64,000 nt of DNA, from positions 21,952,501-22,016,500 of the forward strand of contig NC_090954.1 in assembly GCF_040807025.1 (NCBI RefSeq). Direction: 5' to 3'. This DNA is from Struthio camelus (lineage: Eukaryota > Chordata > Aves > Struthioniformes > Struthionidae). Position 1 is the first letter of the stretch. Each line of letters begins with the position of its first letter. Below the pieces are notes generated by a model, which worked only from the letters and a program-made list of their open reading frames with translations, made no database searches and was not told the DNA's origin. This document shows, one piece after another, positions 3,983 to 42,178 of the stretch. A program made the translations under genes and the position numbers.

Positions 3983-4022
3983 ATGACGGGCTGAACATTC
4001 ATCGCAGAGGGACCTCAGGGCC

Positions 4023-6628: not shown

Positions 6629-9600
6629 GTAGGCATCACCCTTCTGCTTCGGGTACTCCCTCCTCTGGGGTGCAGAAACTGGACTGGGCTCTAGGGTCCG
6701 CGGCTTGCAGATGAGGGACAGGGGGCATACCTGGGGATGGTCCAAGTCCTGAGAGGTGGCTGGGGGTCCTTCCCCACCATAGATGCAGCAGACATTCAGG
6801 CAAGGCAGGGACTGAATCAGCCATCTGTGGAGAAAAGTTGATGTCCTGCTCAAAGAACAGAGGGAGCAGTGCTTATGGGCAGCTCTCAGGGGGACAGTGC
6901 TCACTAGCAGACCCTCCAGATGCCAAGCTCTCTGTCGGTAGCAGCAAACTGTCCAGTGGGTGTCAGGAGAGAGATCCAGTTGGGTGGTGAGGCAGTGCTG
7001 GGTGGCACTGGCTGTCTGCACGCTCACGGGGTCTGGGTTCGGCTGCAGGGAGCAAGGAAACACTACAGGGGTGTGTTGAGGAATGGGGTTCGAAGTGGCC
7101 CCTCAAGCCAGCTCAGGAACGGGAGGACTCTGAGCTGTGGCTGGGGAGATCCCCAATCCCCGAGACTCTCCAGCATCCTCAAGTCTGCGCTTGCTGCTCC
7201 ACCATGCTGTGGGTGACTGCACTGGGACAGCTTTGCCAAGGTTTTTAACTTAGTTAATAGGGTATTGAGGTTTCTCCTTGGCCAACTGTGGGTGCTCTTG
7301 GTCCTGCCAATTGCAGCAGAGTTTAGAGTTCTGCTCAGGTTTGATCAATCTGATCTTTACAGATGAAGTTGTTTTGCCCTCTTGGCAGCACTTATGGCTT
7401 TCTCTTTCCTCAGCAGCAAAATGGGGCTACTCATGTTGAAAAGTCTCAGTTAAGGCTTCCCTGCCTGGAGAGTCATTCAGCTGCTTGCACTGCTCAGCAA
7501 GCCCTTCCCTGCTGAAAGAGCAGCTAGGACCTGCAGACAAGAGGAGATGCCTTTCTCCTCCAGTGAGATTGTGAGGGCACCTTTAAAAATGCTTTTGAAA
7601 TGTACTTTCCATGACTCCTAACAGCATCTGAGAAAGAGGAAGGAAAGCTGCTCTTCCCATTTAGAAAGGGGAGGGTTCCTTTTTCCTGTGTTACTTAGAG
7701 AGAAGGAGGCAATTTGCAGCTCTGTGTCCTTCACTTCTCTCTGTGTCCTTGCTGGGCTGGTGTGTCCTTCTCTCCCTGTATTTCCAGCTTTACTGTAGGT
7801 CAGTCCACCCGTCCTCCTGCTCTGGGTGTGAGTCACTGCAGTATGGCCTGATCCAGTGTCATGGTGAGCCCAGATGTTGCAGCAGATCAGAATCAGGCCA
7901 CAAGAATGGGAATTGCAAACACCTGGGAACAGGAGTTTTCTAGGCAGAAATACTGAAATCTGCCATGGTGCCTCTGAACTCACCGTTCATTTCACCTCAG
8001 AGCAGGGCTGGGCACCAGCTCGTTGCTCACAGTGTCCACCTAGCAGCGTTCATGGAGCTAGGGTCCTGAGCTGATACCTCAAGTTGTGCCTGTGCGTGGA
8101 GGCAAGAAGGGGAAGGTGCCTTCCTGGCTGCATGGTCTCCCAGGCTGCATCGCTGCTTGCCCCACAGCCCTGTCCAGCACCTAGCGCTCTTCCTCAGCCA
8201 CACACTCACTCGCTCAGTGCTGGGGGCTAATAACAGTACAGAGGCATTGGCCAGGCACTCATGGTTCTAACAACACCTCCTGAGCCCTCCACAAAGTGTC
8301 TGCAGCCTAGATTCACTGAGAAGAGACAGGATGTGGCTATCACAAGGGTATCAGAAGCTGCAGTTCACAGTTTTTTTTCTCCCAGCCTGAGTGCTAAGCA
8401 GGCCTGGGGAGTCCAGAGGGTTGAACGAGAGACAGAAAAGCCTCTGAAGATCATTTTCCCTGTCCTCCCGGATGCCGTTGGCCAGGCCTCTGTTACCATT
8501 CTATCTCTCACCAGCTGGTCCAATGCCTTCTTCCCCAGACTGGCCCCACTGGTCCCGTCATGGCCAGTTTGTTATCTTGCTCCCCAGTGCCTGGCACCCT
8601 GCCCAGCACTGGACTATTGTGGACATAGTTAGCATCTCCTCTAGCCCATTAACCAGCTCATTAAGGGAAATATTTCCTAGTCTCAAAAGCTCAGAGAGGC
8701 TCTCCAACCCCTTTGGCACAGCATCTGCTTCTCATCCTAGATAACTCCTCGCACTCTGTCCTGGTAATTTAATTTCGATCTCAGTGCTCTCTGGCTCAGG
8801 GCTCTGGGCACCCAGTGTCAATGGTTAGTGCTGGGCAGTGGTCACAGTGGGAGAGCTGCCTTGGTCAAGGGCCAAGGGCCAGGTGGGCAGCTCCAACACC
8901 AAGCAGATGATCTGGGGACCTGGGCAGCCAGGAGAGTGCTCTCCAGTGAGAGAGAGGCCTAGTGTTTCTCTCAGTGGAGGAAAGGAAACACTGAGCATCC
9001 TTGGCAGGTTGCTACTTATCTCTCTTTTATCCTCCAGCTCCCCACAAGCAGGTCAGTTATTTAGCCCCTAACTTCCAGCTGAGGTAACCAGACCCATCTG
9101 TGGCTCCTTGGTCCCCCTACCACCACTCTATGCCCTTCTTCCACTCCTGGATCCTCCATCCTCCACCAGTTGTCCTGCGAGACTGCTGACAGAGGCTGCC
9201 TCCGCCCCAAATCAGTGCATCTCAGGCAAGTTCCCCCAGGCTCTGCTTTCCTGGAAATGCCTCATATAGTGAACCTCTTCCCTTCTCCTTGCCCAAGGGA
9301 CTTGCCTGGCCCTAAGGCTAGTTATCTTCACTGCCTGACACCAGTTGGAAACAGAGAGGACTTGACCTCCATGGCCTCCATGTCTGATAGCTTTCTCCAC
9401 CACTTTATCATCCAGAGCAGAGCTGGGGGATGGCATCTGTCCTGGCAAGCTCCATCCACTCCAGGTCCCTGGCATGCTGAGAGACCCTGTTCCTGCCAAG
9501 CCATGGGCTTTGCTTGTCCGAGCCAGGTGCTGCTTGTCCACTGGCTTTTCATGGTTTCAATGGCTGTAAATCATGGCCTGGGAAGAAGCACCATGTTTTT

Positions 9601-12600
9601 TTCCCCCCTTTTCTCTTTCCCTGACCCATTTAGCAGGTCTGTCTCCCACTCCATTCTGGTGCTCAAGGCTGATGTCTACATCTTTGACATACACAGTACT
9701 TCAATCTCCCATCTTGCTGGCCAGGCCATCTTGAAGAAGCTGGACATGGGACTGGGACTTCAGCCAGACAAATCGTCCCACCAAGGCTCTGGTACACTAA
9801 TTAAAGAGCAATTTTGGTTGTGCTTTGAAACTCCCAGCTCCTCATGGCCATTTCTCATATTTATGGCAGATACTGGTAACAAATATGCCATTTCCTTTCT
9901 CCACCCACCTCCTTGGCCCCATATGCTACCCCAGTTCTCTGAATCTGACCCCATGCCTGGGGCTCTGATTTCCTGGCATTGCAGCCCTACCTAGGGGCAT
10001 CTCAGCACCTTCAGCAAAGGTCAGGGTATGTTTAGAAGGAAGTCCTTCTCTGGGGACTCATCAGTCAGATCTCTGTGATCTTTGGATGCCAAGCACTTCC
10101 CCAGGATGCCAGGTCGGGCCCCTCTTCCAAGTCTTGATCTGCTCGCTTTCTGCTCATCATTTCCTTTAGTGGGAACTGGGGCTGTTACTGCCCCTCCCCT
10201 GTTGTCAGTCCCCAGTGCTCCCAGCCTCAGAGCCCTGTCCCCCAAGTCATCCTGGGGTTTAAGGACCTGGTGATTATGCCTTTCCTCTAATTCTGGCCCT
10301 AAGTCACCACAACAGATAACCAGCCTTGCAGAGACACATGGAAATCTAGTTTATGTGGTTTCGGCCCAATATGTTCCCATCCAGACTTCAGGTCTTGTCT
10401 CTTCCACATGGCCTAGGGACATCTGTTGCCTTACAGCCACATAGGGACATAGCAAGGTGCCTGTCCAGGGTCAAAGCAAAGGTGCATGCAGTATCCCGGC
10501 TCCCGCAGTGAGACAGTGATCAAAAGCAGGTGCTTAGAGAAGAATTTAAGATTAAGGGAAGTGTATAGGATAATTCTGCTGGTCCACAAGTATTTCTACC
10601 CCATGTACTTGTAATCTGGAGATGGTTTCTCATATTTAGTAGCCCCCTCCATCCACAGCATCCTGCGGCGGGGAGTCCCACAGATCAGCTGCTCCTTTCC
10701 TGTGTTGTTCTCTAGCCTGCTCCTGCGGGCTTTGTCCGGTGGCTCCCAACTCCTGTGACTGAAGTGAGGGTGACCAGGAGAAGCCCCCCTGTCCTCCCCA
10801 TGCCACTCATGACTTCAGAAACCTCTCCCCTATCAGTCACCCTTCCTGAGGCTGGGGAGCTCCAGCTTACTCAGGCCTTCCTCAGCCAAAAGCTGTTCCA
10901 GAGCTTTTATCTTCCTCACTGCCCTTCTTGGAGCCTTTTCTTTGTCCTCGGGCTGGGGCCAAACTCAGCATCACAAGCAAGTCAGTGGCATGAGTGCTCT
11001 CCTGCTGATGCTGGGGAGTCTTTGCTGCTGATGGCAGGCACCACCATGAGTCTTTTCCTGCCCATCACCACTGCACCTGGGCAGCTCCCCTGTGAGCTCC
11101 TGGACCATCAGGCATTCTCCAAAACATTTCCTTTTTGGGGAAAAAAAAAATCTGTCTGAGGGGAAGGGGCAGGCTTAGCAGTTTATTTTTATAATTTCCT
11201 TTTATTGTTACGGCTGGATAGTCTCGCCAGGTCTGGCTTGGGTTTTTAGCATCATTTTCCAAGAAAATGAGACTGATGCAGGAGCTCCACCTGTCCGTCT
11301 CTTTGTCCGTCTCAATCCCTTTGGAAACAAGCAGCCGCATTTCAGCTGGACATGAGAGAGGGACACAGGGTGCTGCAGGCAGAAGGACCTTCCCAGTGTC
11401 ATGAAAGTCAGCAGGATGGAAGGGAGAGGCGAGGTTGAAGCTCCCTGGTAGGGAGGGAGCTGGAATGGGTGTAGAGCAGGGCATACAATATGTAATATAG
11501 AAAGTATGTGACTTCAGTTTGCTGCCTATGGCGTGTTGAGGGGAAGGCAGCGTGGCCTGGGGTTTGAAGGTATGTGGTGTGTGGCATCACCTAAGGTGGG
11601 GAAAACATTTTTGCCAGCTGCCCCTAGCCCATCCTGGGGACCACTTCTCAGCATTGTACCTTTGGGTTTCCTGCCTTCATATAGGGCTGGGTAAGCCTCG
11701 GGCTGCTGACGGCCACAGGGCTCACGAGCACTGAGTCCTTATCCCACCCTGGTCACAGGGATGCAGAGACCCAAGCTGTTGGGTGCACTGGGGAACTCAG
11801 GGTTGGGGCCAGGAGCAGTGTTAGGCACCTTCTGAGGGGGTGGCATTGATCAGCAGCCCTGTAGGTCCTCACGTAACAAGTGGTCAAGCTGCCGCAGCAA
11901 GGGTGCCACAGCCCCGTTTCTTGCAGGACAAGCAGCGAGTGTAGCAGCGATGGAAAGAGCGAGGACGAAGAGACACGGACCAGGCTCATCGACCGCATCA
12001 TCCAGAATGACACAGAGGGCTACTCCACTGTGGAGGCACCACAGGCTGAGGGCACTCAGTTCAGTCTACCTCCCCACCTCTACCCAGACGAGGTTCTGGA
12101 TGACCTGACCATCTCCCCCTACGCAAGCTACACCTCCCTCTCCGAGCCCCGGCCCACCATGCTCAGGGGCTGGCTGGACAAGCTCTCCCCACAGGGGTAT
12201 GTGCCTACCTGCAGGGTGGTGATGGGGCAACCAGGTCCCCATAAGTTAAAACCCCCTTGGGCATTGCTGGAGATGTGGTTGGACTGGTCACCAAGCCCCA
12301 TAATCCCTCAGAGCCATTTGGGAAGCGCCAGACCTCCTCACAGACATCTCAGTACTCCTGGGCCTCCCAGCAGCAGTCCCAGTTCTGCAAGGGTGTCCCT
12401 GCAGCCATTCTGGAGGGGGAGGTCTGTGTGCAGGTGTGGGGTCCTCAGAGGCACCATGCACTTCCCAACAGCCCTGTTCTTCTGCCACCTTGACAGGAAC
12501 TATGTCTTCCAGAGGCGCTATGTCCGCTTTGATGGGAAGAACCTGATGTACTTCAGCAGCGAGAAGGTGAGAAGGGTCAGGAGGTGGGCAGGAGGGGAGG

Positions 12601-15600
12601 CTGCCCTGCCTCATTTAAGCAGGATGTCTTGGAACCTTCTCCCCTTTGCCTCCCCTTATCCCTCTCCTGTAAGAAGCCTGCATGGCTTTATCATGGCCAT
12701 GGTAGAGTGACCACTCCCCATTTGCCTGGCCAGCTCTGAGCATAACCCCGTCCCATAGGAAACCCGGGGGTACTGAAGATCCCTCTCCTGGGGAGCAGGT
12801 GAGGATAGTCTCCCCACGCTAGAAGCCCTAGGGCAGGCTGTAAAAGGGAGGTCTGAGTCTTTGCCTCAAACCCTTCCCAACGCAAATTCTCAGGCTCTGC
12901 CACAGGATGGCTTGGTGGTCTCCATGCCACAGGATGAGGGCAGCACCCAGCCAAGGATGTGGGAGATGTAGAGGATATACTAAACTGGGGAAGTTTTCTC
13001 CTTGCGGGTGCTGGCACAGCAAGTTAGGTGTGTGAGATGAGTAAACAGCTCTTTCCTGTCTCTCATTCTCTCAGCCTGCTGTGGGGTTTCTGTACAGCCC
13101 TGAAAGGCCTGGTGTCGGGAGCTGGCAGCTGCCACGCCAGCCGCGGTGGCAGATACTACTGCTCCAGTCTCACAACAGAGCCAACCAGGCTTACTCAGTG
13201 GCACCCAACACATGGCCCCAGAGCAGCTGGTACTGCAGGAGACCCCAGGCTTGCACCCAGCCTGCCACAGCCCGTTCCTTCCTCTGCCCCACAGTTTTGA
13301 TGTCAGTGCGTCCCGTAAGGTGGATGCTGGGGTAGGCAGGCTGCAGAGGCACCTGCAGGAAGGGCAAAGGGGGTAATCCAGCCTGGGGCTTGTTCCAGGA
13401 GCCCTACCCCAAGGGGGTGATTCCGCTGTCTGTGATTGAGATGGCTCGCTCCACCAAAGACAACAAGTTCCAGGTTGTCACCAGCCACCGGATCTTTGTC
13501 TTCCGTGCTGAGAATGAGGGTAAGAGAAACCCCAGACGGGACCCTTTGGTCCTCGAGGAACCATCCCTGCCTCCCTCCTACAGTGAGAGCTTCCCTGGAG
13601 CAGCTCTCACCCCATCCATACGCCAGGCTACCTGGCTGCAGTGAGTGGGTAGGCTTCTCTGCCCTGCCATCCCTGATGGGTGCTTTGCTCCATGCCGGCT
13701 GAGCCAGGTTGGTGGGAAGGGCTTGAACCCGCTTACTCACACCTCTCCTCCCTGCACAGCCCAGAGGAACGAGTGGTGCTCCACTCTGCAGAAGAAGGTG
13801 GCAGACCAGCGCTTGGTGGGCTCCCGGCCCCGGCCCGCCAACACCGCTCACTGCCAGAAGTCTGGCACCCTGGAGCTGAAGGGTCAGAAGTCCAAGGTGT
13901 TTGCAGCCCTGAGCCTGCCTGAGATGTGGCTGTACAAGAGCGAACAGGTTTGTGGCAATACCCCACGGTGAGCACAGTGGCCAGAGCAGGTCCCCAAAAC
14001 CCAGCTGGCACAGAGGGTTGTGCTGACAGCAGGTGCAGCAGAAAGCAGCAGAGAGATGGAGAGAGCTTAGCCAGGGCTGGTGCCAAAGGGGCTGTATGGA
14101 CACTGGAGAGGAAGAGGAAGGATGGAATGGATGAGGGGAAAGCTCAGGACCCTGCATCCCCTCCCCATGTGCAGGCACAAACTTTCAAAACAGGGCACCT
14201 ACAGTGGGAGTCTGGGCTATGAGATGTGGTTGGTGCCAGGACTCCCATCTCTGAGCAGACCTCCCTCCCAATCTCCCCACTAAAACTGAATTATCTTCAT
14301 CTCTGCAAAGCGTTCGGGTCTCAGTGACACCAAATCACCCCAGTGCATCACAGGACAGGTGGCTCAGTGACCACTAAATTACCAACACACATACCTGCTG
14401 CAGTACACTCTCACCCTGTGGGAGGCAGCAGATATCTCTGCTAGCCCTTTGCACCCAGACAGCTGCCCGTGGAAATCCCCACCTTCTTCTGCTAAATGTT
14501 CTCACCCATCCCTGTTTTTCTGGTCATCTCCTTTACAGTTTGCCTGGCTCGAAATAAGCAGGCATCGAGCGTCGGTGAATTTTGCTCACGTGATATCTGC
14601 TTCATTAGGGTGCCTGACCCAATCTGTTGTGGGCTACCAAAACAGAGGAATTTGACTGGCTGGGTTTCAGAGGCTCTGGACAGAATCTGCCTTTCATTCT
14701 AGGGTATAACACATTTGCAGGGGGCTTTATGTCAGCCCACATGGGACCACTGAGAGATGTGGTCGTGTCCCAGGTCTGGCTGCACCTGGCAGAGCAGGTC
14801 ATCACCCACCCCCAGGGATGCAAAACTGGGTGGTGCTGGGCCCAGCTACCTGGCTCCAGGCCTGGCATTGCAGGCATGCCCAGGGACATAAGCCCACCGC
14901 AGACATGGGCCCAGCACTGCCAAGCCAGCATCACCCATGCCACAGCTCACCAGTGTCACTCTGAATTGCAGTTCTTTAAAATGGGCATTGGCATCTGCTT
15001 GATTGAGATGCGTGGCTCTACCATCCGGGAGGCCAAGAACCGCAGCTTCGAGCTCATCACCCCCCTCAAAATATTCAGGTAACCCAGATGTCCAGGTGGG
15101 GCAAGGTGTAGGGAGCATCTGGGTACTGCACCCCCGGGCTGGGCGCTCTGGACCCATGAGTGTTTGGCTGCGCTTTTCTGCTCGTAGCTTCATGGCGGAG
15201 TCAGAGCGGGAGAAGCGGGAGTGGATGGAGGCCCTGCAGGAAGCCATAGCCGAGACACTCTATGACTACGAGGTGGCAGAGAAGATCTGGTCCAACAAAG
15301 CCAACAAATACTGCGCGGACTGCCGGGCTCAGAATCCCGACTGGGCATCCATCAACCTCTGTGTGGTCATCTGCAAGCAGTGTGCAGGCTAGTACAGCTC
15401 CCTGCAGGGCACCAGGGTGTACCAGGGCAAGTGGGCACATGGTGGGGACAGGGAGAAAGCTGGCATATGCTGAGCAGACCGTGAGGGGATGTTGGGATGA
15501 GAGGGAGGACTGTGTCCAGCTAGCAGCCAGGTGGCACGTGAAGGCTAAGTCTGCCTGGGTGGGCAGGGTTCTGACCAGGGTGTGGGCATGATTTTGGTGC

Positions 15601-18600
15601 CAGTTTCCCTGGCAGGGTCACTGGATGCTCACTTGCCTGCTCCCCACAGGGCAGCACCGGAGCCTGGGCTCCAATATTTCCAAGGTGCAAAGTCTGAAGC
15701 TTGATACCAGCGTCTGGTCCAACGAGATCGTACAGGTAGAGGCACTCAGAACGGGGAACTGGGGCTTGCATGGCACTCCCAGGGGCCAAGCTGCTTTCCC
15801 AGGCAGGGTAATAGCCCCACAGTCTCTCCCAGGATGTGTGGATGTGTGGAGGGTATGTGGGGATGCGAGGATGCTGAGCATCCTGCTGCCCCTGGCTGGG
15901 CCTGGCACTCTCCATGATGCCAGGACTTTTCTGTAGCTCTTCATCATGCTGGGTAATGACAGAGCCAATCGGTTCTGGGCCGCTCGCCTCCCCACCGCTG
16001 AGGCCCTCTACCCAGATGCGAGTGCTGAGCAGAGACGGGACTTCATCTCCCGCAAGTACCGGGATGGGCGGTACCGCCTGCCCCATCCCCACTACGCCAC
16101 TCAGGATGATGTGCTCCAGGTAAGGCAGCTTCAGCGTACATGTGTAATGTTGGAGTGCTGGGAATGACCGCAGAGCTTTGGGTTTGAGACATCAACTGCC
16201 CCTGCTCGGCTGACTGCGCCCACACCCTCACTCTGGGCTACCCTGTTGAGCAGTGGGCAAGGGTGGGAGATTGTGCTCCTGCTTTACCTGCCTTTGAGCA
16301 CCCCTGGCAGAGGGTCGGGGGGTCCCACAAGCTGAGACATGGTTGCTATGGATGCGTGTCTCATCCTAGGCGCTGTGTGCTGCAGTGACAGGACCAGGCC
16401 TGCTCAAGACCATCCTGCAGTTCTTCTCATCCTCAGAGGCTGGGCTGATGCCTGATGCCGGGGCCTACGAGGTGTCCCCAGGGGCTGACCTCTGTTGGGG
16501 CCCAGAGAGCAAAAGGCCCAGGAACCATTCAGGTAATGGGGACTCTCAAGCCCTGCAGTGGCTGTCATGGGGAACTTCCTCTTTGTCACTGCCCCTGCCC
16601 CCGACAGCATGTTCCATGCCTGCGGGACAGCAGTGGCATTAGATGCTGTGTGACACCATGGTTCCCTGAGGGACCAGGGGTGCCCCACTGCACCCCCCTC
16701 TTTCAGGATGGGGTAGGGTGGCAGGTACTTCTGGAGCCCCCTTTCTGTGAGCCCGCCTTGCCTGGAGCACCACATTGCCAATACATACATGAGTGGGGTT
16801 GCACTGCCACCCTGGGGGCTGCATTTTGGTCGGTCCCTGCTCCCATCCTCTCTCAGCACTGTGCCCCGCAGGGAGCCCAAGCACAGGAGAACCAGGCCCA
16901 GAGAGCGTCTACAACGAGATCACTCAGCCAGTGACACACAGTGGGTACCTGCACCGGGCTCTCGCCCTCCCCAAGCTCCCGAGCACCAGAAAAAGCAGAG
17001 ATGGTAAGTGAGGGAGCGTGGGAGGGCAGCCCACAGGGCGCTCGCCCTAGTGCCACTGACAGCATGCTCCTGCAGACTTCCAGCGCATCTGGTGCTCCCT
17101 GGAGAAGGCCCTGCTCTTCTTTGAGACGGACAAATGCACCGAGCCCCTGGGCCACATCGACAGCAGGGACCTCCTTTCTCTGGGTGTGAGCAGAACCCAT
17201 GCACTCACCAGCCCTGGCCCCACAGAAAGGTACCTCTGGCCTTGCCCCCTGTCCCTGCCCACATGTGTCACAGCCACCTGACCCAGATGGATGCAGTATT
17301 GGCACAGATGGACCTGCAGGCTAAGGCCCACAGAGCCCATGGGCACGCAGAGGGCAGGGATGGGGTTTGGCGTGGTTCAGCCAAGGCGATGGGGCAGGGG
17401 ATCTGAGCGAAGGTTCAGGGTGTGGAGGGCTACCATGTTGGGCTGGTTCATTTGCTACAGGTTTCGCTACACCCTCGAGCTCTTCCTCACTGGGGAAAAA
17501 ATGCAGCAGCTGGGAATCGATGGGCCTGACACGTTGCAGGCCTGGGCCAGCGCCATTGGCAAGGTGAGCCAGCCCCCAGCCCTGGGCACCCAGCACTGCT
17601 CGGGGCTCTGTCTCTGTTTCCTCAGCATGAGACTCCTCCTAGATCCCTACAGGTGAACTCTGCCTTTACCAGGCTCTTCTCTTCCTTCGGTCCCCAGTGG
17701 TTCACGCCTGTGAGCTGTCACTGCCTGCTGGGCTACGAGTTTCAGCGTGTGGGCCAGCTGCGCTACAAGTGCATGCTCAACCCCGAGCAGTGGCAGCAGG
17801 CCTTCTTCATCCTGCAGAAATCTCACCTCTTCATCTGCCCCACCGAGGATGATGGGGCTGAAGACAGCATTAACCTCCGGCGGCTGCAGGAGCTCAGTGA
17901 GTGTGGCAGGAGAGGGGAAGCTGCTCTGTGCCCCAGGGAGGGCATGACGCAGCAGGAGGCCATGGGTGACTGACCTCTCTGCTCCTCACCCCAACACAGG
18001 TATGGTCCCCCCCACAGAAACCCCAGAGAGGAAGGAGCTGCTGATCCTGGTGGAGATGGGGAGGTGAGCCTTGCAAGGGGCAGGTATCCCACTCACGGCT
18101 CCAGAAGGGATGGGAAAAGTGTCCCAGCAGGCCGTGCAAGCTCAGCAGGCTGCCTGGGGCAAAGGCACTCGTGTGGGCAGGCACTGATCCCAAATCAGCA
18201 GTGGAGACACTGCTGGAGCAGCAGGGTTGGAGCCAGCCCAGCTTACTCCCCTGGCCTGGGGGTCTCTCACTGGTGTATGGTGCCCCTCGGCTCAGCCTGG
18301 CTCTGCCTTACTCCCTACGCAATACCCCGGAGCCAGGCTGTGCGTGCAGGGAAGGGGGTGGTAGCACACCCCCCTGGCAACCTTCATTCCCTGTTCTCTG
18401 CCATTGTCGTTGTCAGGACATTTTACCTGCAGGGCTTGTCACGGGCAGACTCTGCAGCATGGTACACGGACATCCAGGCGTCAGCAGGGGGCCGGGGTAA
18501 CGCACTGCGGGACCAGCAGCTGAGCCGCGGGGACATCCCCATCATTGTGGACAGCTGCATCGCCTTCATCACGCAGTATGGTGAGCGCAGTGGCTCGCCG

Positions 18601-21600
18601 GTGGGCACAGCCCCTGGCCCCAGGCAGGAGGCTGGCATAGCCGGAGCGCTCCCTGGCGTGTGCAGGATGGTCGATGGGTCTGAGCAGGGGGAAGCTGTTC
18701 TCTAAGCTTCAGTACCAGTGGGAAGTCCCTGAGCGGGACCGGGCCCTCATGACTTCACGTCCCTTCCCCAGGGCTACGGCATGAAGGGATTTACCGCAAG
18801 AATGGAGCCAAGTCCCGGATCAAGGTACTAATGGAGGAGTTTCGGCGGGATGCGCGCAACGTCAAACTGCGCATCAATGACAACTTCATCGAGGATGTCA
18901 CCGACGTGCTGAAAAGGTTCTTCCGAGAGCTCGAGGACCCCGTCTTCACCCTGGAGCTACACCCACAGTGGAAGGAGGCTGCAGGTACGCTCCCTCACCC
19001 CGACCCCTTCTCCACACTATGCTGCCTGCTGTTGACCCTGGGGCTGAGCATGCAGATGGTGTCCCTCGGGATGGTGTCCTTCACAATGGAGTCCCAGTGC
19101 TATCCCCAGCGCCATGATAGGTTTGCCTGGCTTGATGATTTTCCCTGACTCTGTTTCCTCCTTCCAGGAATCTCCTCAAAGCCCCAGCGCCTGGAGCGGT
19201 ACAAAGAGCTCATTCACCGCCTGCCTCGCCTCAACTACAAGACCCTGGCTGCGCTGATCGGGCACCTCTACCGGTGAATGTGCCCCTAGGCCACCTCCCA
19301 CCAGGCCACCAGGGACCCTTGGTCCAGCTGGGGTCCCCAAGGCCATCCGATAGGGTTGGGTCTCCCCACTGGCCAGGAAACACTGGCTCCCATCTTCTGC
19401 TCCATCAGCTCCTGGACCTACTGCTGGGGTGTGCGGGAGGGTGCTGCTCTGGGACATCTCAAAAGGTAGAAACATTCCCAAAGTCACCCTGCAGCAGAGG
19501 GAGAGAGGAGGTTGGGGACTAGGCAATACCCCCTTCCAGGATGTCAACTGCACCAGTGTCCCAGAAGTAGGAAAAGAAATAGGCGTCCGTCTGAAATCAA
19601 GGCTTGCTATGAGGCTGTTGTCTGGTTTGATGGCAACTGGAAGTCCTGGAAACAGGAACTGCCTAGCATAAAATTCCCACTCTTGGTAACTTGGGGAGCT
19701 AGGGAAAAATGGGCTGACTCTTTAGGTGAGTCTGTAAGCAGTGGAAGAGGGTGGCTCGTGCTGGCCCCTCATGCCCATGTCCCCTTGCCCCAGAGTGCAG
19801 AAGTGTGCTGACCTCAACCAGATGAGCACCAAAAACCTGTCACTGCTCTTTGCGCCCAGCCTCTTCCAGACCGATGGCAAAGGGGAACACGAGGTCAAGG
19901 TGATGGAAGACCTCATTGACAACTATGTCAGCATCTTCAATGTAAGCTCCTTGTAGGGGCCTTGCTAGCCCCACTCCACACTGTTCAGTGTGCCTTCCCC
20001 TGCATCCTCCTCTTCAGTCCTGTTCCTCCCCCGCATCCGCCATCTTGGCTCTATGTGCCTCAATCCATATCCCCTTCCACCTTAACTCCATGCCTCCTCT
20101 CTCGTTCCCCTCACCCTGCACCCTTCCTCCAATAGATTGATGAGGACCAGGTATCCCAGATGGATCTGGAGAACAGTCTGATCACCACCTGGAAGGACAC
20201 TCAGGTACTAGGGATGTTCTTGCCAGCCTCTGCCACGCTGGAGACCATAGGCTTGTGGGATTGTTTGGAGGATGGGGGTAGCTCTGCTTCCCAGCGCCCC
20301 CACTCTGGGTCCCCCCTACTCTTCCACCTCTGCCTGCAGCTTGGGCAAATATCTGGGGAAAGACATCCCCCACCTTGTCTCCCCCTCATCCGTCACTGTG
20401 AGCCTCATGCCCAAGGGAGAAGCAGCCCCCTGTTCTCTGAGACGCTATTTACAGCCCCTGGGGACAGGCGATGCGTACCAGACCCACACCAGCATGGCAC
20501 CCAGCGCCACCTACTCTTTCCCCACAGCTATCACAGGCAGGAGACCTCATCATCGAGGTTTACCTAGAGCAGAAGCTGCCTGACTGCTGCGTCACCCTGA
20601 AGGTGAGTCCCAAGGAAGGGAGAAAGGGAGGAGGAGGCACAGGCTACTGGGCACAGCCTGTCCCTGGCGTGTCCAGCGCCATGCCCACTGGCAGGGGGAC
20701 CTGTCCCAGCACCACCCAGCCACAGCTCCCTACTATGTGTCCTGTCCCAGGTGTCTCCCACAATGACAGCAGAGGAGCTCACCAACCAGGTGCTGGAGAT
20801 GCGCAACGTGGCAGCCAGCCTGGATATCTGGCTGACCTTTGAGGTCCTGGAGAATGGGGAGCTGGGTAAGCCTCATGGGGATGGTGGGAAGGGGATGCTT
20901 GCAGCACGGCTGGGCTAGGCGAGGAGGGGGACAGGATATGGGGGGCAGTTTGCCATCAGGGAGATAGGCAGAGAACAGGGGGAATGGAGAGTGGCACAGG
21001 GGAGATGGCATGGTGATGAGGGTGTCCCTGCCTCCCCAGAGCGACCCCTGCACCCCAAAGAGAAGGTGCTGGAGCAGGCCTTGCAGTGGTGCAAGCTCCC
21101 AGAGCCCAGCACCGCATACCTCCTGGTGAAGAAGGTCCCCATCGGCGAGGGCAGCTGTCTCTTCACAGGTAAGACAACACATTGTGGTGCACCAGAGGGT
21201 CCCAGCCCTGGGGAGTCTGGATGGGCCCAGCTGGCAGGACAACTCTGCCCCAACTTCCTCTTACCCCAGCCACTGTCCTTCAGTTACCACTGGCACATCC
21301 CTGAGACCCTTGTGGACCCAGCCTTGCCCACAGAGGGGACGCCTTCTGATACTCCCCGACAACCTCACCTATCCCCCAGGCCAGGCAGACCTTCTGTCTC
21401 CTCCACTGTGCAGGTGCCAAGCGTGAGTCTCCCAAGTGTGGACTGCTGAAATGCCGTGAGGAGCCCCCCAAGCTGCTGGGAAACAAGTTTCAGGAGCGTT
21501 ACTTTGTCATCCGAGACCGGAAGCTGTTGCTGCTCAAGGAGAAGAGGGTATCTGGGGGATGCAGTGGGGCCAGATCTATATTCCGAGCGTGGGAGGAGAA

Positions 21601-24600
21601 CTAGGGTGTGCGGGGAGGGAAAGTCCGCGGTCACAGGGACAAGCGGTGGCATTGTCACAGCTGTGCAGGATCCTCTCCTGAGCAGGGTGGGCAGATGGGA
21701 GGGCATGTAATAGGCCCAGAGCTGGGCTGTGAAACCCTCTGGCTCTCATTCCTCAGAGCGCCAAGCCAGAGCGAGAGTGGGCCCTGGATGCGGCCAAGGT
21801 TTACATGGGCATTCGGAAGAAGCTGAAGCCACCAGGCCAGTAAGTTGAACCTTTACCGGACATGACCCTGGGGAGTGTATCCATCACCTCATCTCTCTTC
21901 CTGAGGTGCTGGAGCAGGCACAGTCTTCTACCTAGAGTCAGCTGCAGCCCTCGATCCCTGTACTGTGATACCTGACACTCCAACCTGGCCACTGGGAACG
22001 TCTCAGTCCCCACCAGGACCCAAAGCTATGCTGAGCCTGGGCCCAGTGGGGCATTCTGATCCCTCCACCCCACTAGCCATAAGCCTATGGCCACATCTGA
22101 GGTTTGGTGGTCCTGCCACACAATCTGTGTCTTACTTCCTTAGGTGGGGTTTCACCCTGACCTTGGACAAGCAGCAGTTGTGAGTATCTGCCCCTGCCTT
22201 GCTGGAGCTAGGGGTGGGGGGAATGCAAAATAGTTCCTGTCTCCAGTCTTAATGAGGCCACAACAGCCAGTTTTATCATGTTCCTGGGGCTCTAGAGGAT
22301 CCTGGAGGGCCAGGGCAGAGCCAGAGCTTGGCTGGGGCACTCAGGGGCACAGTTGTGGGGGTTGCACACATGGCACAACGTGGGCAGCACATGGACCAGG
22401 CTCCAGGGGCAATCGGTCCCCTAAGCTGGGCGGGCAGCCAAGAGAGGGACAGAGCTGTCAACACCTGGCCGAAGGAGAGAGTTGTGCCCACTGTCACCAC
22501 GGGGACTCATGCCCATGAGTGCTCCCTGCCTGCCCCATCTCCATGTGCACCAGCACATCCTGCTGATCCTCTCCCTGTTCCCCTGCCCCTGCTGATGCTG
22601 GGCAGTGCCCAGTACTGGGTCTGTAGTGCTGCCACCGGCTGGACATTTTGCCTGCCCATAATGTTAGGCTGAGACGTTCTTCTAGGGCCAGCAAGGACAG
22701 CCAAGTTGAGCTGCCTGGTGCCAGACTGGGCAAGCTCCTGTCAATCCTGTAAAGCAGTGATTTAGGCACGCAGAGAGTTTCAGAGGGCCATTTCCTGATA
22801 CCAGTCCTGGGATCTGGTTGTACATGACAGCCCCAGGCTCCCAGGCAAGGTGACAAGGGGACCTTGGCCCTGCTGGCCCTCCTCCCCGGCAGCTTCTCAG
22901 CTGACTCCTTTGCAGGTACTTGGCATGCTCAGGGCAGGCTGAGCTGTGGGACTGGACCACCAGCATCCTCAAAGCTCAGGTGGGTGAAGGCTGGCTTTGC
23001 CACCCAGCTGGGCTGGGATGGGCTGGGGGCCGTCAGGGTGGCCTGGTGTGAGCCCGCCTTGTCCTTGTGAACAGCACGATGACCTGCGCCCTGTGATCAT
23101 GCGCCGACGTTCCTCCTCCGACCTCGCCAAGCAGAAGTTCGGCACCATGCCGCTGGTGCCCCTGCACGGGGACAGCACTGACGCCACCATGCTTTCAGCC
23201 AACCAGACCCTGGTAAGGCCACAGCAGCTGCCCTTGCCTACAGGTGCTCCTGCACCCACCCCGAGACCAACTTGGAGAGGGGCATGTGTTGCCCAGAGCC
23301 AAGTGGGTACTTTGAGTGTGTGTCTGTGCACCCAGCAGTGCGTGTGTGCCATGTGCTGTGTTTGTGTGTCTGTGCCACTTCCCCATGCATGCAGGGCACT
23401 GTGGGGCATGCAGGGCCACATTGGTGCCCTGAGTGTTGACAAGAACTGCCTGCCAGCATGCCAGGGTGCTGTGCTCGGAATGAAGCACATACTGCTGTCC
23501 ATCCTGCGCCTGCTGAGGCAGGTTTTCCTGCAGCCCTGACCCTGCTATGCGCTATCAGGTGCTTATCTCTGCCCATCTCCTCTGTTTCTAGCGCCGCCTG
23601 CACACGCGAAGGACTTTGTCCATGTTCTTTGTAAGTATCTGCATGTGTGAGGTGTGCTAATGCAGGCTTTGAACTGTGCCTCATAGCTCCTGGGGACAAG
23701 GGCCTTTCTGCAGCATCCTGCCCATGCTTATGTAGGTACCCAGGCCATTCTGCCCATGCCATGTGGCAGAGGATGGGGTGTCCCTCTGTGTCCCACAAGT
23801 GGCTCCCTACATGGGTCTGATGTGTATAGTCAAGTCCACAGAAGTCCAGCCCAGCTCCTTACACCTCTCCCTTTGGGCCCTGCATTGCCCAGAGGGGCTG
23901 AGCATGAGAAATGTGAGGGAATAGGTTTGTCTCCTTCTCTCCACCAGGTTATTTCTGGCAGGGCCACCTACCCTGCCTGGCTTGCAGGACTTACCTTGCA
24001 TGGCTTTGGGCCCTGCCAAGGTCTGCCTTTCCTCCTAGGGCCATCTGTGCCAGGGGCTGCTGAGTGGGTGCACAGACCTTGAGCAGGCTGAGGCCCAAAG
24101 TGCTCACCCTTCTTCAGTGGTGGGGGAAAGAGCAATGTGAAGGAAGAGCAGCAGGAACGAGTAGAGTCTGAGATCACTGGCACCACAGCAGAGCCCTGGA
24201 CATGGTCTGTGACTTGTGCTGGTGCCCTGGCTCGCTTCCACTCCTGGGAACATCCCCTGGGGTACAGTGGTGGCACAATGCTGGAGACTGCCAGGGCCCA
24301 GGCTGAGCCCGAGGGAGAGAGGAGAGACCTGAAGAAGTGCAGGTCACCCAAGAGAGGTCTAGCAGAAGTATTAGCCCCATTGCAAGGGGACGAGGCCCAG
24401 CAGGTCTCTCTGGGGAGCACCCATGTCCAGGCAGGGTGAACTGAGGGTGGCAGGGCTGCCAGGGAGGTGAGCAAGGCTGAGCAGCATGGGCAAAGCCAGT
24501 TAAAGGGGGATGTATGGGGTTGTCCTGGGCTTCCCCCTCACTCTGGCCACTCCATCTTCCCCCAGCCCATGAAGATGCACCAGGACTCTCTGGAGGAGCA

Positions 24601-25201
24601 GCAGGAGAAAGAGGTGGACACAGAGCCTGTCTATGAGGAGGTGGGCAACTACCCTGAGCTGGCCTCACTGGAGCTGGACCGGGAGCTGCTGGCAGACCTA
24701 TCATCCGTCCCCTCCGTGGACAGGTCCAAGAAGTCGTCCCTGTTCCCCGAGCAGCCCCCAGCCCCAGCGCTGCGCTCCTCACTGCCCATCAGCCCAGCCC
24801 AGAGGGTCTCAGGTCCCTCTGTCACCAAAGCCCTGTCCCTCGAAAGGGGTTTGAACCTTGAGTGTGACAAAGGCCCAGCCCACGGCAGGTCTGCTGGGCT
24901 CAGACACACAAAAACAGCCTCTCTTGAGAGGAACCTGGAGCCTTCCCTAGTGCTGGCCAGGGACCAAGACCAGGTGGCCATGCCAGGGAGCAGTCCTAGC
25001 ATAGAGACCTCCCTGGAGATCCGCAAGAGGAACATCCAGCCTTCCTCACCCATCAACAACAAGCTGATGCAGGAGCTCAGCAGTATCATCCTCAAGAAGA
25101 ACGAGGGCCAGCCCCCAGGATCAGGACCAGGACCGGGGCCAGGGCCAGGGCAAGGGCCAGGGCCAGGGCCAGGGCCAGGGCCAGGCCAGCAGGTAACATG
25201 A
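4023..25201 (+). CDS. ARAP3: ARAP3, Arf-GAP/Rho-GAP with SAM, ankyrin-repeat-family, RA and five PH domains
   Basis: PI(3,4,5)P3-regulated dual GTPase-activating protein: its Arf-GAP acts on Arf6 and its Rho-GAP on RhoA, controlling actin and membrane dynamics at the plasma membrane (known for the family). Thirty-three coding exons join in phase to 5493 nt, giving 1830 aa. The domain order is SAM (about aa 8-70), PH1 (about 513-605), PH2 (about 622-710), C4 zinc-finger Arf-GAP (about 712-843), PH3 (about 918-1027), PH4 (about 1028-1130), Rho-GAP (about 1149-1348), RA (about 1350-1455), PH5 (about 1455-1560) and a proline-rich tail. Closest recalled relative is human ARAP3, not ARAP1 or ARAP2: near-identical blocks include SLKLDTSVWSNEIVQLFI and the Rho-GAP SRGDIPIIVD segment. 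The start is the first ATG after a 5' UTR acceptor (AG 3981-3982), with G at -3. The protein is about 290 aa longer than human (1544 aa), mostly in the SAM-PH1 linker and tail. One intron has a GC donor (15388). Exons are listed in the block entries. Confidence 0.95.
5868..5870 (+). promoter_or_regulatory. ARAP3: NAGNAG tandem splice acceptor of ARAP3 exon 2
   Basis: The sequence cttccagcag offers two AGs three bases apart after a pyrimidine tract. Both keep the frame and differ only by one serine codon. Confidence 0.6.
8480..8690. repeat. Unclassified interspersed repeat, copy 2
   Basis: The segment at about 8560-8655 (gccagtttgttatcttgc to tctcctctagccca) aligns along its length with about 1230-1315, sharing cores such as ccctgcc, ggacatagt and tagccca. 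By eye the identity is roughly three quarters. The family is unknown to me, and a weaker third match may lie near 14415-14445. Confidence 0.5.
10560..10765 (-). repeat. Probable old CR1 LINE fragment
   Basis: The stretch containing tagccccctccatccacagc, then gggagtcccacagatcagctgc and ending ggtggctcccaactcctgtg, resembles the reverse complement of the CR1 3' region common in crocodilian and turtle genomes. Recognition is by memory of the consensus. Confidence 0.45.
11927..15387 (+). CDS. ARAP3: ARAP3 coding exons 5-10: PH1 and PH2
   Basis: Exons: 11927-12196, 12497-12566, 13399-13519, 13760-13947, 14972-15078, 15188-15387. PH1 runs from RGWLDKLSPQG through NYVFQRRYVRFDG, whose basic residues in the beta1-beta2 region suit PIP3 binding, to NEWCSTLQKK. 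PH2 starts at SGTLELKGQKSKVF and ends in EREKREWMEALQEAI. Exon 5 opens with an acidic serine-rich stretch (SSECSSDGKSEDEE) and contains DDLTISPYAS, matching the human DDLISPYAS landmark and fixing the register of the linker. Exon 10 continues directly into the Arf-GAP zinc finger. Confidence 0.92.
15188..16119 (+). CDS. ARAP3: ARAP3 coding exons 10-12: Arf-GAP zinc finger
   Basis: Exons: 15188-15387, 15650-15735, 15937-16119. The C4 finger is visible as CADC...CKQC with the usual spacing, followed by AGQHRSLG, which holds the catalytic arginine of Arf-GAPs. The next exons give SKVQSLKLDTSVW and LGNDRANRFWAARLP, close to human ARAP3. Exon 10 ends at 15387 on CAG and the intron begins with GC, not GT: using any GT nearby would put an in-frame TAG into the finger, whereas the GC donor restores the family sequence exactly. 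Confidence 0.93.
16370..18580 (+). CDS. ARAP3: ARAP3 coding exons 13-19: PH3 and PH4
   Basis: Exons: 16370-16532, 16872-17003, 17076-17229, 17461-17563, 17698-17896, 18000-18063, 18417-18580. Landmarks are SVYNEITQPVTHSGYL (start of PH3), WCSLEKALLFFETDK, a tryptophan-bearing PH C-terminal helix LQAWASAIGK, then PH4 from the WFTPVSCHCLLG block through LRRLQELS to RTFYLQGLSRAD and AWYTDIQAS. The divergent linker in exons 13-14 has no ankyrin signature that I can see. Exon 19 also begins the Rho-GAP. Confidence 0.88.
18417..20204 (+). CDS. ARAP3: ARAP3 coding exons 19-23: Rho-GAP domain
   Basis: Exons: 18417-18580, 18772-18984, 19168-19273, 19794-19941, 20136-20204. The arginine finger lies in GIYRKNG at the start of exon 20. 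The other Rho-GAP hallmarks are KRFFRELEDPVF, LIGHLYR and LNQMSTKNLSLLFAPSLFQ, where the conserved asparagine stabilises the transition state in known Rho-GAPs. All catalytic positions look intact, so RhoA GAP activity is expected (inference). The domain ends with DLENSLITTWKD just before the RA domain. Confidence 0.93.
20528..22979 (+). CDS. ARAP3: ARAP3 coding exons 24-30: Ras-association and PH5
   Basis: Exons: 20528-20602, 20751-20865, 21040-21168, 21414-21547, 21757-21839, 22144-22179, 22916-22979. The RA domain runs from GDLIIEVYLEQKLPDCCV through TAEELTNQVLEMR to ERPLHPKEKVLEQALQW; in ARAP3 it binds Rap1-GTP and stimulates the Rho-GAP (known). PH5 runs from LLGNKFQERYFVIRDRK through VYMGIRKKLKPP and WGFTLTLDK to LWDWTTSILKAQ. 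Exon 29 is only 36 nt but is needed to keep frame and matches the human sequence. Confidence 0.92.
23075..25201 (+). CDS. ARAP3: ARAP3 coding exons 31-33: C-terminal tail
   Basis: Exons: 23075-23212, 23592-23630, 24566-25201 (TGA). RRRSSSDLAKQKFGTMPL and RRLHTRRTLSMFF match the human tail. PVYEEVGNYPEL retains the tyrosine motif that Src-family kinases phosphorylate in mammalian ARAP3, although one VYEE copy is present here where human has two. The last exon ends in a Gly-Pro dipeptide run encoded by a hexanucleotide repeat (about 25115-25190), followed by the stop. Confidence 0.9.
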
Positions 25202-26872: not shown

Positions 26873-27897
26873 CTATGGCTGGCTCTGCTCGCTGGACCTC
26901 AGGGGCAAGGCCACCTTCTCAGAGGCTCTCCCTGTCGAGCTCTTGAGCTGCCTGGGGCAGCAGGTGCCTCCATCCCAGATGCAGGCCCGAAAATCTCTGG
27001 AGACGTAGAAGTAGATGAAGGGATCAAAGCAGGTGTTGAAGGCGCTGAGCACCAGTGCTAAGGCATACCAGATGTAGGTGATGTTGTGGCATCCAGTAGC
27101 ATCCAGCACATAGTGGTTGAAGAGCAGCACATTGCTGGGGGTGAAGCAGAGGATGAAGACCAGGAGGACCAGGGCCAGGACGTGTACCATGTGCCCATAT
27201 TGACTCCCCTTGGCCACCAGCCGCACTAGGATGCAGCCATAGGAGATGGTGATGAGCACAAAGGGCAGGCCAAAGCCCAGCCCTACCAGGGAGAGGAAAT
27301 AATAGAAGAGGAACTTTTGATCATCCTTTTCTAGGACATCGTGGCATGTAGTGATGTTCAGCCTTGAGATGTGTTTTGTCTGGGGAATGAAGAGCAGAGG
27401 GCTCACGCCCAGCCCCACTGCCAACCAGATCCCCACACAGACACCCACCCTGCCCCACATCCACCTGGACCCCTTCCACAGGAATGGGTGCACCACAGAG
27501 ATGCAGCGCTCCAGGCCAATGCAGGTGAGGAAGAGGATGGAGCTGTACATGTTCCCGTAGAAGAGGGCTACCATGGTGCGGCACAGGTAGTCCCCAAAGA
27601 GCCACTGGTTGCCCAAGAGGTGATAGAAGATCTTGAAGGGCAGCAGGAGGGCAAAAAGCAGGTCAGCACTGGCCACGTTAAGCAGGAAGAAGGTGGTGGA
27701 ACATCTCTTGAACTTGGTCACCAGGACCCAGCAGGCCAGAGCATTGGCTGGCAGCCCCACAAACAACACCACGGAGTAGAGAGCAGGGAGGACACGGGTG
27801 GTCACAGTGCTGTTGAGAAAACCTTCCACGGAGGCGCTGGGGCACTCAGCTTCTTCTTGGGGAGTGAGAGGGATCAAAACTCGCCCTTTGCCATGCA
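26873..27897 (-). CDS. PAR-like receptor exon 2 (cleavage site, 7TM, tail)
   Basis: The acceptor is a strong pyrimidine tract, ctcctgtgtcctcctcag, ending at 27898. Translation gives the protease site at 27895-27878, TM1 from about ALYSVVLFVGLPANALACWV, TM3 with YGNMYSSILFLTCIG (compare PAR2 YGNMYCSILFMTCLS), extracellular loop 2 TTCHDVLEKDD, TM6 ILCFTPSNVLLFNHYVL, TM7 SAFNTCFDPFIYFYV, and stop TAG at 26875-26873. No break is seen and all helices are intact. Confidence 0.92.
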
Positions 27898-30736
27898 CTG
27901 AGGAGGACACAGGAGATTAGGCTTGTCCAAGAGCACCCTCCCACTGCCCCTTCCAGCTTGGAACCATGTAGGAAGCTGTCACCCCTCCCTGCAGAGCAGC
28001 CAGGAAATCCAAGAGCTGGCATCAGCCCGGTCAACAGCAAAGGGCAGCTTGAGACCCAGAAGTCCTGCATCCTAGTCCTTAACCTCCTGGTCCCTGCAGA
28101 TGTTCACAGTGCCTCAGCTGAGGCAAACTCTACCCTTGCTGGCACTGTGCTCCTAAGCTGTAATACCAAGCAGAGGAGCACTATCACCCCCAAGGACCTC
28201 CCTCCTGCCCCACACATCCCCCAGCACCCCACAGGAGTGTGAAAGGCCATGGAGAAGTGACATCCCCAAGTAAGACACTGTGTAGTCAGCAAGAAAAATT
28301 CACAAGAGCCACAAAGCTGCCCTTGCCGCAGAGCCATGCCACATCATGTGCTGCTCATGCCATGCTGCTCGCCTAGCATCGCGGTCATCTCAGTGCCAGC
28401 CCAACCAGGCTTGGAGAGGAACAGCAACCCTGTCTGGAGTCTAAGATGGTCTCTGCTCACACGCATGCAGACATGCACATGTCGCGTCGCACTGACAACG
28501 TCCCTTTCCCTAGCACGTTCATGCCCTGCTCTAGTAGGAGCAAACCATGCGCAAGATATGGCGGATGCCCGTCCCCATCCTGCTCCTCCAGCTGTGTGTG
28601 CCAGGAAGAGCTGCAGATCAGACCCTGGAGCAGCACCTGGCCAGTCTTCACAGCAAAAATAACCAAAGGAGGCCCTGTGAGCCTGACAGGCTGTCTGGGG
28701 CAGATGGGGGAGTCATGGGGAGCGTGATGGTGGAAGAAAAGGGGTGCATGGCACAGGGTCCCACTCAAAAGTACCTGGCATGGTCTCTGCAGTATCCCTG
28801 AATGTGCCTAGGTGCTCTGGGGGGTGACACCAGCCTTTCAGGACTTTGGGGACAGCTCTGCCCTGGCTCCCCAGTACCTAACCTACAGGCTGGGTCTAGC
28901 ACATGACTGTCTCCCCAGAAACGCAGTGGATATAAAAAGGGCTGGGTGGCCTGGGAAGAGGCAGGGATCCTGTCTCTGCTGAGGCAGCAGCGCCCCAGTA
29001 ACATACGGTCCCTGCGCCTGCCAGCTGGCGAAAAGCAGCTGTGGGAGGCTGCACTTCACCCGCAGCCTCGTGGCCTGATCAGACACCTTAGTCAGCAGCT
29101 CGCAGAGCCCCGGATTGCCCAGCCTCTGACGCAGATGGGACACGCCACCCACGCCACGACGGGGGATGAGACGGGGATGTTCTCCCCCCTGAGCTGTCCG
29201 CAGTCTCTCACCTCTTCCCCTCAGGCGGGCCCAGGCAGCCAGGGCCCCCCCGCCTCGGCCACGGCTGTGCATACCTCCCCCCGCTCCCTGCAGAGCTTTT
29301 GACTCAGAGCAAAAGCACAGAACAGGAAGGTCCTAGGTCACCAAAAAAAAAAAAAAAAACCCCACTGATCAAATCCCTTTTCTTAATATTTTCTTCACTC
29401 TAAAAATGCAACCAGGCTCTGCTTCCTGCACATCACTCCGACGTGCGTTGATACCTGTATGAGCAGCTCCCCTCCCTGATCCTACAATACACCTAAATAT
29501 ACCCTTCCTAAAGCCTTCCCTTCTGCCCCACTGCACTGCTCCCAGCTGGGGGGCTGGCCAGAGAGATGCAGCCCCCCTAGGAGCCTGTTTTGCCAGGGCT
29601 AGATGTTAACACTTCTTGGCATCTGCCAACATGCGCTGCTAATGCATCGCACCAGGGAACAGTTAAGGCAGTCCCCTGAGCCTGAATGCACGGAGTGGCC
29701 AGCTGTCTTGAGTGATTACCCTCATCATTACAGCAGCCCATGTGGTTCTCTGCAAAGCTTTTCCTGAGACAGCTTTCCAAGCGCTGCCACGGCTGCCGGC
29801 TTGCCCTACGGCTGCCTCACAGCCCTAGACCTGCGGGAACTGAGTTGCCCTTTGAGTGGGCACATAGCGAGCCCCAAGGGACAAGGGAACCATCTCAGCT
29901 GCTCAAACATGATGAGCCCAATCTGCCATGACCGTCAGCTCCAAGGAGCGGCAGCGGTCGCAAGTCACCGCATCCCACTCTGGGACAGGAAGCAATGTGG
30001 AGATTTCCTGAGAGCAGGCACCCATGCTGGCTTGGGCACAGGGCACGACACTCCATGCAAGACCACTTCCAGGACAATGTGTTCAGATCTGGGACTTAAG
30101 AGAAAGTTTCCTGGCTCCAATTTAGCCTGAGATGAATGGCTCCAGCTCCAAAACCCCAGAGACTTTCAGTTGGTCCCCAGGATGCTTGAGGTCTAGGGCA
30201 CCAGCAGGGCCCAGTTATGTCCAACAGCTTCCTACAAAGACTGACGTCTCTGCCCTCCCCACTCACGGTGGAGGCAGTAGAAATTTCAGGTTACAACAGC
30301 AATAATTGTATTTTTGCTGTGATAGGGAGGGGAAGAGCAGCAGAGTTTCAGATGATCGATGGGGTTTTCAGTATGGACAGTAAAAAGACCCAGAAAAAGC
30401 AATAGAGCTGTCCCCCAACCCATCTCTGTAACAGGCAGCAGTTCCCGTCCGAGTGCCAAGCAACACAGTATTGGGATATCCTGGCCTCCATATGGTCCGT
30501 GCCCTCCTTGTCCTGCCCCATCGCCTCCCAGCTGGCACATGCCCCCCACCCCAGCCGGCTGGCCTCTCCTGAGCCTCCTTAACCAGATCCCCAAGAAGGA
30601 TCTTCCCCAGAAAGGGAGCGAGAGACCTACCAGGGTGCTTAGCTGTGGAGAGTTCGACAGCTGAGCAGATCCAGGTGCAGCCAAGCAGGAGGGAGACGTA
30701 AATGGCAGCAGAGCAGGGGGAAGGCAAAAAATACAT
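26873..30736 (-). CDS. Protease-activated receptor-like GPCR (F2R/PAR family)
   Basis: Class A receptor of the PAR family, activated in known members when a serine protease cuts the N-terminus and exposes a tethered ligand; it acts at the plasma membrane through G proteins. Two coding exons, 30736-30631 and 27897-26873, join in phase 1 to 376 aa, the classic PAR layout. Exon 1 encodes a signal peptide (MYFLPSPCSAAIYVSLLLG, cut probably after CSA at about aa 26). Exon 2 opens with HGKGR/VLIPLT, predicted cleavage after Arg41, then an acidic EEAE patch, an N-glycosylation site (NST), seven helices, Cys in LCRTMV paired with the TCHDVL loop, and DPFIYFYVS in TM7. TM3 ends in LERCISVV, not the usual D/QRY. 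The tail is short with a CC palmitoylation-like pair. It is convergent with ARAP3 and head to head with FCHSD1. It is closest in cleavage site to PAR2 (F2RL1) but sits outside the known PAR loci, so no symbol is assigned. Confidence 0.88.
27898..30630 (-). other. PAR-like receptor intron (2.7 kb)
   Basis: Single intron of the receptor, phase 1, gt-ag. It contains an A17 homopolymer at 29343-29359 and an isolated plus-strand TATA-like motif at 28931-28939. No other gene is recognised. Confidence 0.7.
29343..29359 (+). repeat. A17 homopolymer
   Basis: Seventeen consecutive A. No retroelement body is recognisable just upstream, so it may be a simple repeat or the tail of a decayed retrocopy. 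Confidence 0.8.
30631..30736 (-). CDS. PAR-like receptor exon 1 (signal peptide)
   Basis: ATG at 30736-30734 with A at -3. The exon has 35 codons plus one base and ends CACCCTG/gtaggt. The hydrophobic core AAIYVSLLLGCTWIC is followed by small residues (CSA) suited to signal peptidase. The leftover G joins TG of exon 2 to make Val36. Confidence 0.85.
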
Positions 30737-31950: not shown

Positions 31951-31959
31951 CTGGCACCA

Positions 31960-32209
31960 GCCCCCAGCGCGCCGCGCGTCCCCGCCACCGGACCCCAGCG
32001 CTCCGCGGGGAACGCGCAGCGGCGGGCGCGGCGGGGGCGGGGCCAGAGGGGCGGAGGGGCGGGGCCGCGGGAGGGGAGGGGCCGGAGCGGGGCGGGGCCA
32101 GGGGCGGGGCGGGGCCCGGCCGATCCCGGCAGTTCCGGGCTCCGCCCACGCGGGGTGGCGGCGGCGGCGGCGGCGGCGGCGGGGCCGGGGCCGGGGCCGG
32201 GGCGCGGGG
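31960..32209 (+). promoter_or_regulatory. FCHSD1: FCHSD1 CpG-island promoter and 5' UTR
   Basis: Very high GC with dense CpG and repeated GC boxes (gggcggggc-type motifs at about 32030-32115), no TATA box, ending at the FCHSD1 ATG. Typical of a broad Sp1-type promoter. Confidence 0.75.
32157..32203 (+). repeat. FCHSD1: (GGC)8 followed by (GGGGCC)3 in FCHSD1 5' UTR
   Basis: Eight GGC units (32157-32180) run directly into three GGGGCC units plus GGGGC (32181-32203), ending six bases before the FCHSD1 ATG. Confidence 0.9.

Positions 32210-42178
<9,969 letters not shown>

Follow-up and report, generated by a model that had tools for sequence, protein, structure and literature searches.

An intact fifth protease-activated receptor gene between ARAP3 and FCHSD1 in the ostrich, most likely the PAR4-related F2RL4

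Our analysis of a 64,000-nucleotide stretch of ostrich DNA (the window, C13:21952501-22016500) did reveal an intact protein-coding gene for a protease-activated receptor (PAR), the fifth PAR gene of this genome. With a probability of about 0.82 we read it as a paralogue of PAR4 (F2RL3) that predates the parting of birds and mammals, and most likely as F2RL4. The gene has two exons, sits on the minus strand between ARAP3 and FCHSD1 and encodes a protein of 376 residues. Its features and those of its two neighbors are listed here in window coordinates; a slash within a sequence marks a protease cut or a splice junction.

30631..30736, minus strand: coding exon 1, with the ATG, a hydrophobic signal-peptide-like stretch and the first 35 codons (106 bases, phase 1 end)
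27898..30630, minus strand: the single intron, GT...AG, phase 1, 2,733 bases, as read in the DNA
26873..27897, minus strand: coding exon 2, with the candidate site, seven transmembrane helices, the CHDVL loop, the cytoplasmic tail and the stop
27860..27895, minus strand: candidate protease site and tethered ligand, HGKGR/VLIPLTP, from comparison with PAR N-termini of the same genome and with human sites in passages of PMC12455044
26019..26024, minus strand: AATAAA polyadenylation-like signal 3' of the receptor stop, a consensus match only
3987..25198 (approximate), plus strand: ARAP3, converging on the receptor gene, with SAM, ArfGAP and RhoGAP exons by Pfam
32210..41502 (approximate), plus strand: FCHSD1, head to head with the receptor gene, with SH3 exons

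The start codon of the receptor gene lies at 30736 and its final stop base at 26873. The splice donor follows 30631 (CCTG/GTAGGT), the acceptor precedes 27897 (CTCCTCAG/TGCATG), and the spliced coding sequence comprises 1,131 bases, that is 376 codons and a stop, in an unbroken frame. Read in the DNA, the ATG, splice sites and stop agree to the base with the exon boundaries drawn in an earlier note on this sequence, and the PAR layout described there (two exons, a signal-peptide-like start judged by eye, a candidate protease site, seven helices and CHDVL) is likewise borne out. The protein begins with MYFLPSPCSAAIYVSLLLGCTWICSA, which is signal-peptide-like by eye, continues with VELSTAKHPVHGKGR/VLIPLTPQEE and then enters the seven helices. 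Exon 1 was also found as a match of its own in a protein search of the genome (C13:21983123-21983236). By chance, 340 open codons would be expected with p of about 4.5e-5, a crude figure that takes its stop frequency from the gene's own intron.

The encoded protein is a rhodopsin-type seven-helix receptor (Pfam 7tm_1, E 2.8e-45) with the PAR-type second outer loop (CHDVL), and the gene has what appears to be the PAR arrangement of two coding exons, a signal peptide in exon 1 (by eye) and an intron ahead of the putative site. Exon 2 of PAR1, PAR2, PAR3 and PAR4 of the same genome, read in the DNA, likewise fits a phase-1 acceptor. The best solved relatives by sequence were human PAR4 (216 bits), PAR2 (206), PAR1 (187) and P2RY8 (168); the top four matches among solved structures are PAR4 and PAR2 entries, and the score of human PAR4 exceeds that of PAR2 by only 10 bits. 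An AlphaFold2 model of the exon 2 protein, built with an alignment of the five PARs from the same genome, reached a mean pLDDT of 76.1 and shows all seven helices as well as the hairpin in the second outer loop; pLDDT falls below 50 at residues 1-19, which include the cleavage site, and in the tail (313-340). When this model was compared with solved structures by Foldseek, ten of the eleven best matches were PAR1 or PAR2 entries, rank 9 being P2RY8, and PAR4 (8yrq) was absent among the 50 matches listed.

Identity, loop, motif and invariant-position counts cover PAR1 residues 99-384. The protein is 44% identical to bird PAR4, 43% to bird PAR2 and 42% to human PAR4. At 17 selected pocket and second-outer-loop positions of PAR1 it carries the human PAR1 residue 16 times, compared with 13 for the P2RY8-like row. 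His255 of the CHD loop is shared by the window gene and all seven other PAR rows, and each of the ten non-PAR rows lacks it. Of 45 positions invariant in those seven PAR rows the gene keeps 42, a count that fails to single out PARs because P2RY8 keeps 40.

The genome searched comprises 1.45 Gb in 262 contigs, and 109 of 238 candidate matches from the protein search were scored. Among the scored matches, the best after the gene's own exons was locus L002 (C26:5.39 Mb, 43% identity), followed by three genes found on both C40 and C41 (L003/L004, L005/L006 and L007/L008, 38-43% identity) and then by P2RY8-like and other receptors at 37% identity or less. Compared with human PAR cleavage sites as quoted in passages of PMC12455044, the N-terminal sites mark L003 as PAR2 (SKGR/SFIG), L005 as PAR3 (LIK/TFRG), L007 as PAR1 (RGR/TFLM) and L002 as PAR4 (PCPR/AIPG). 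L002 scored 336 bits to human PAR4 versus 245 to PAR2, and two SIN3-type PAH matches are found 17-19 kb away from it; human F2RL3, we assume, adjoins SIN3B. The PAR3, PAR1 and PAR2 genes lie within 86 kb on C40, in an order and orientation that we take to be those of human 5q13, their identities being assigned by gene order and cleavage sites. All four other PARs are present in the same genome, and the window gene is therefore a fifth PAR and not a relocated copy, in line with the earlier note, which proposed a fifth paralogue. A mammalian loss, which that note also proposed, is implied by the tree placement given below, taken together with a human complement of presumably four PARs. We also observed that C40 (70.4 Mb) and C41 (89.9 Mb) each carry a nearly identical PAR1-PAR2-PAR3 trio, which would fit either a palaeognath's Z and W chromosomes, little differentiated from each other, or two haplotypes.

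Phylogenetic analysis placed the window gene next to PAR4. The main tree held 18 rows, namely 15 of 25 loci and fragments of human PAR1, PAR2 and PAR4 without the N-terminus; human PAR3 was left out, as were the near-identical second copies L004, L006 and L008, three loci whose longest frame was not the receptor (L010, L015, L019) and four that were not chosen (L021, L023, L024, L025). In this tree bird PAR4 and human PAR4 form a pair (100/97), and the window gene joins that pair as its sister with support of 92/91. Three further trees, one of nine rows, one with PAR3 removed and one with another model and stricter columns, gave the same fork at 87/91, 98/96 and 90/88, with bootstraps of 99-100 for the PAR4 pair; the sister position was thus recovered in all four trees at bootstraps of 87-98. 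Eight AU tests were made in all. One-to-one pairings of the window gene, either with only human PAR4 (p 0.006) or with only bird PAR4 (p 0.009), were rejected, and the split therefore predates that of birds and mammals, within the rows used. PAR4 is likely the nearest PAR neighbor of the window gene, as judged from these alignments. The tree groups the gene with PARs over other delta-group receptors, the place of P2RY8 among the PAR lineages and the base of the PAR family being poorly settled in the 18-row tree. Pairing of the window gene with P2RY8 was rejected (p 0.011), a single clade of all eight PAR rows gave p 0.502 with a log-likelihood 0.41 above the free tree, and P2RY8 fell outside the PAR lineages in two of the further trees with weak support (59/68 and 56/78).

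Other readings of this placement were weighed. The gene could belong to the PAR1/PAR2/PAR3 side of the family, or represent an independent PAR lineage, and have been drawn to PAR4 by long-branch attraction. At the 0.05 level the AU test did not reject pairing with PAR2 (p 0.060), PAR1 (0.078) or PAR3 (0.118), nor a clade of the seven other PAR rows that excludes the window gene (p 0.102), and the candidate cleavage site is PAR2-like; however, the gene joins PAR4 in every tree and finds its top score in human PAR4, though by the narrow lead over PAR2 given above, and we regard this origin as unlikely. The gene could instead be a PAR4 duplicate that is recent or specific to this lineage, which would fit the sister position, but its identity to the genome's own PAR4 is only 44%, whereas bird and human PAR4 share 54%, and the pairing with bird PAR4 only is among those rejected; such a duplication appears highly improbable. 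Just as improbable is a pseudogene that lost its function recently. Its DRY motif reads ERC, which might be taken as decay, but PAR2 has QRY and bird PAR3 SRY, so that variation here is ordinary within the PAR family, and the 376 open codons, the GT/AG splice sites and the 16 of 17 matching pocket and loop residues speak against it. It is the intact frame that suggests a working gene. A one-to-one orthologue of F2RL3 or F2RL1 that has moved, for which the closest human relative being PAR4 might speak, is the least probable reading. For F2RL3 it was rejected within the rows used, since the genome has its own PAR4 near the SIN3-type matches and since both one-to-one PAR4 pairings failed the AU test. 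Against F2RL1 stands the genome's own PAR2 gene, with SKGR/SFIG, which the tree unites with human PAR2 at a bootstrap of 100%. The window gene neither pairs with human PAR4 nor has SIN3B as a neighbor. The earlier note had named such a relocated orthologue as the case against its proposal and a PAR family tree as a check; with PAR1 to PAR4 found separately, and with the window gene outside the bird-human PAR4 pair in a tree of 18 rows from human and one bird genome, that case did not materialize.

An ancient paralogue of PAR4 in a bird has a precedent in the literature. In the passages available from Rinne et al. 2019 (PMC6504862) it is stated that 'Near F2RL3, a group of amphibian/birds(5) ... 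was named F2RL4', and 142 clades without human orthologues are reported, among which F2RL4 presumably counts. As an additional PAR4-side gene in a bird, the window gene fits this clade in tree position and in the taxonomic range given in those passages, and we infer that it is F2RL4. The match is one of description, the clade being represented here by its name and one Xenopus protein identifier (ENSXETP00000005770). Very probably, then, the clade of the window gene already has a name that the earlier note overlooked, and the gene is a real, little-studied one, not new as a kind. In its passages on this point, a zebrafish PAR1 study (PMC3408399) reports no homologue of PAR4 in zebrafish. In the literature searched, whose scope left out most subscription papers, the name F2RL4 occurred in PMC6504862 only, and neither a functional study of F2RL4 nor a paper on the synteny of ARAP3 and FCHSD1 was found.

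With PAR4 the window gene shares, besides its nearest position in all trees, the phase-1 intron before the site and the CHD loop, and its third inner loop is short as in PAR4 and PAR3. It differs in that a separate PAR4 gene is present and in the absence of a Pro ahead of the candidate cut, PAR4 having PCPR/AIPG in this genome and PAPR/GYPG in human, as quoted in passages of PMC12455044. P2RY8, which among the matches listed comes nearest of the non-PAR receptors in both sequence and fold, has CFDVL in place of CHDVL. The candidate site itself is closer to that of PAR2 than to that of PAR4: GKGR/VLIPLT compares with SKGR/SFIGQK in the same genome, SKGR being, as we assume, also the residues of the human PAR2 site. 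The human PAR2 ligand SLIGKV, given in passages of PMC12455044, has Leu-Ile at ligand positions 2-3, as does the window gene. PAR2 differs in its place in the trees and in a third inner loop longer than that of the window gene.

These comparisons give an indication of how the receptor might be switched on. The candidate site GKGR/VLIPLT has no Pro ahead of the cut Arg and is followed, by eye, by only a short EEAE stretch and no long acidic hirudin-like one; such a Pro or such a stretch would mark a thrombin-receptor site of the PAR1/PAR3/PAR4 type. Since the site is PAR2-like and the main activator of PAR2 is trypsin according to passages of PMC12455044, a trypsin-like activator is predicted, and an agonist peptide would begin VLIPLT. 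A tethered-ligand mechanism would be the natural reading of the putative site, the pocket and the loop: the signal peptide would be removed first, a trypsin-like serine protease would cut after GKGR, the freed N-terminus VLIPLT would bend back to reach the CHDVL loop and, beneath it, the pocket, and the receptor would then couple to G proteins like other PARs. The position of the cut, the protease, signaling and expression are all predictions from the gene as read here.

The two flanking genes were identified by their domains. For ARAP3, three of six frames gave domains in the Pfam search and the other three none. Its last frame ends at 25198, where a Gly-Pro repeat (GPGPGPGPGQGPGPG...) at 25110-25198 closes the coding tail; this is apparently an expanded simple repeat. 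On the other side, an SH3 exon matched the KIAA0769 protein and F-BAR and double SH3 domains protein 2 at 91 and 89 bits (next best 43), Pfam found SH3 in two of nine frames of the FCHSD1 region and no match in the other seven, and the start exon at 32210 (MQPPPRK) is one that we take to be like that of human FCHSD1. A search for FCH domains gave 11 matches genome-wide and none in the window, where the domain was perhaps missed because it is split over exons. In human, ARAP3 and FCHSD1 are presumably adjacent with no GPCR in between. The start codons of the receptor gene and FCHSD1 are 1.47 kb apart (30736-32210), and a shared promoter is possible. A CpG-rich stretch lies on the FCHSD1 side (32001-32500; GC 0.81, observed/expected 0.97).

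A paralogous block at C1:222.47-223.84 Mb (L021, L022) also has delta-group receptors between FCHSD and ARAP-type genes:

C1:222.47 Mb: FCHSD2-like SH3
C1:222.66 Mb: P2RY2
C1:222.71 Mb: P2Y6-like gene, taken for P2RY6 (best solved match P2RY4; P2RY6 absent among the matches listed)
C1:223.84 Mb: ARAP-type RhoGAP exon

A wider reading, which we put forward tentatively and at somewhat less than even odds, is that birds and amphibians retain an uncharacterised fifth sensor of the PAR4 lineage, with a PAR2-like, thrombin-independent switch (GKGR/VLIPLT), that was lost in mammals. More boldly still, the ARAP-FCHSD block might be an old receptor home, because its paralogous block carries P2RY2 and the P2Y6-like gene. 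Research on clotting and inflammation presumes four PARs. An ancient fifth PAR outside mammals, if true, would alter the reading of protease signaling in birds and amphibians, and it poses the direct question of which protease cuts this receptor and whether it has replaced or complemented PAR4. The window gene would also exemplify the loss of a receptor in the mammalian lineage, in a neighborhood that can be dated.
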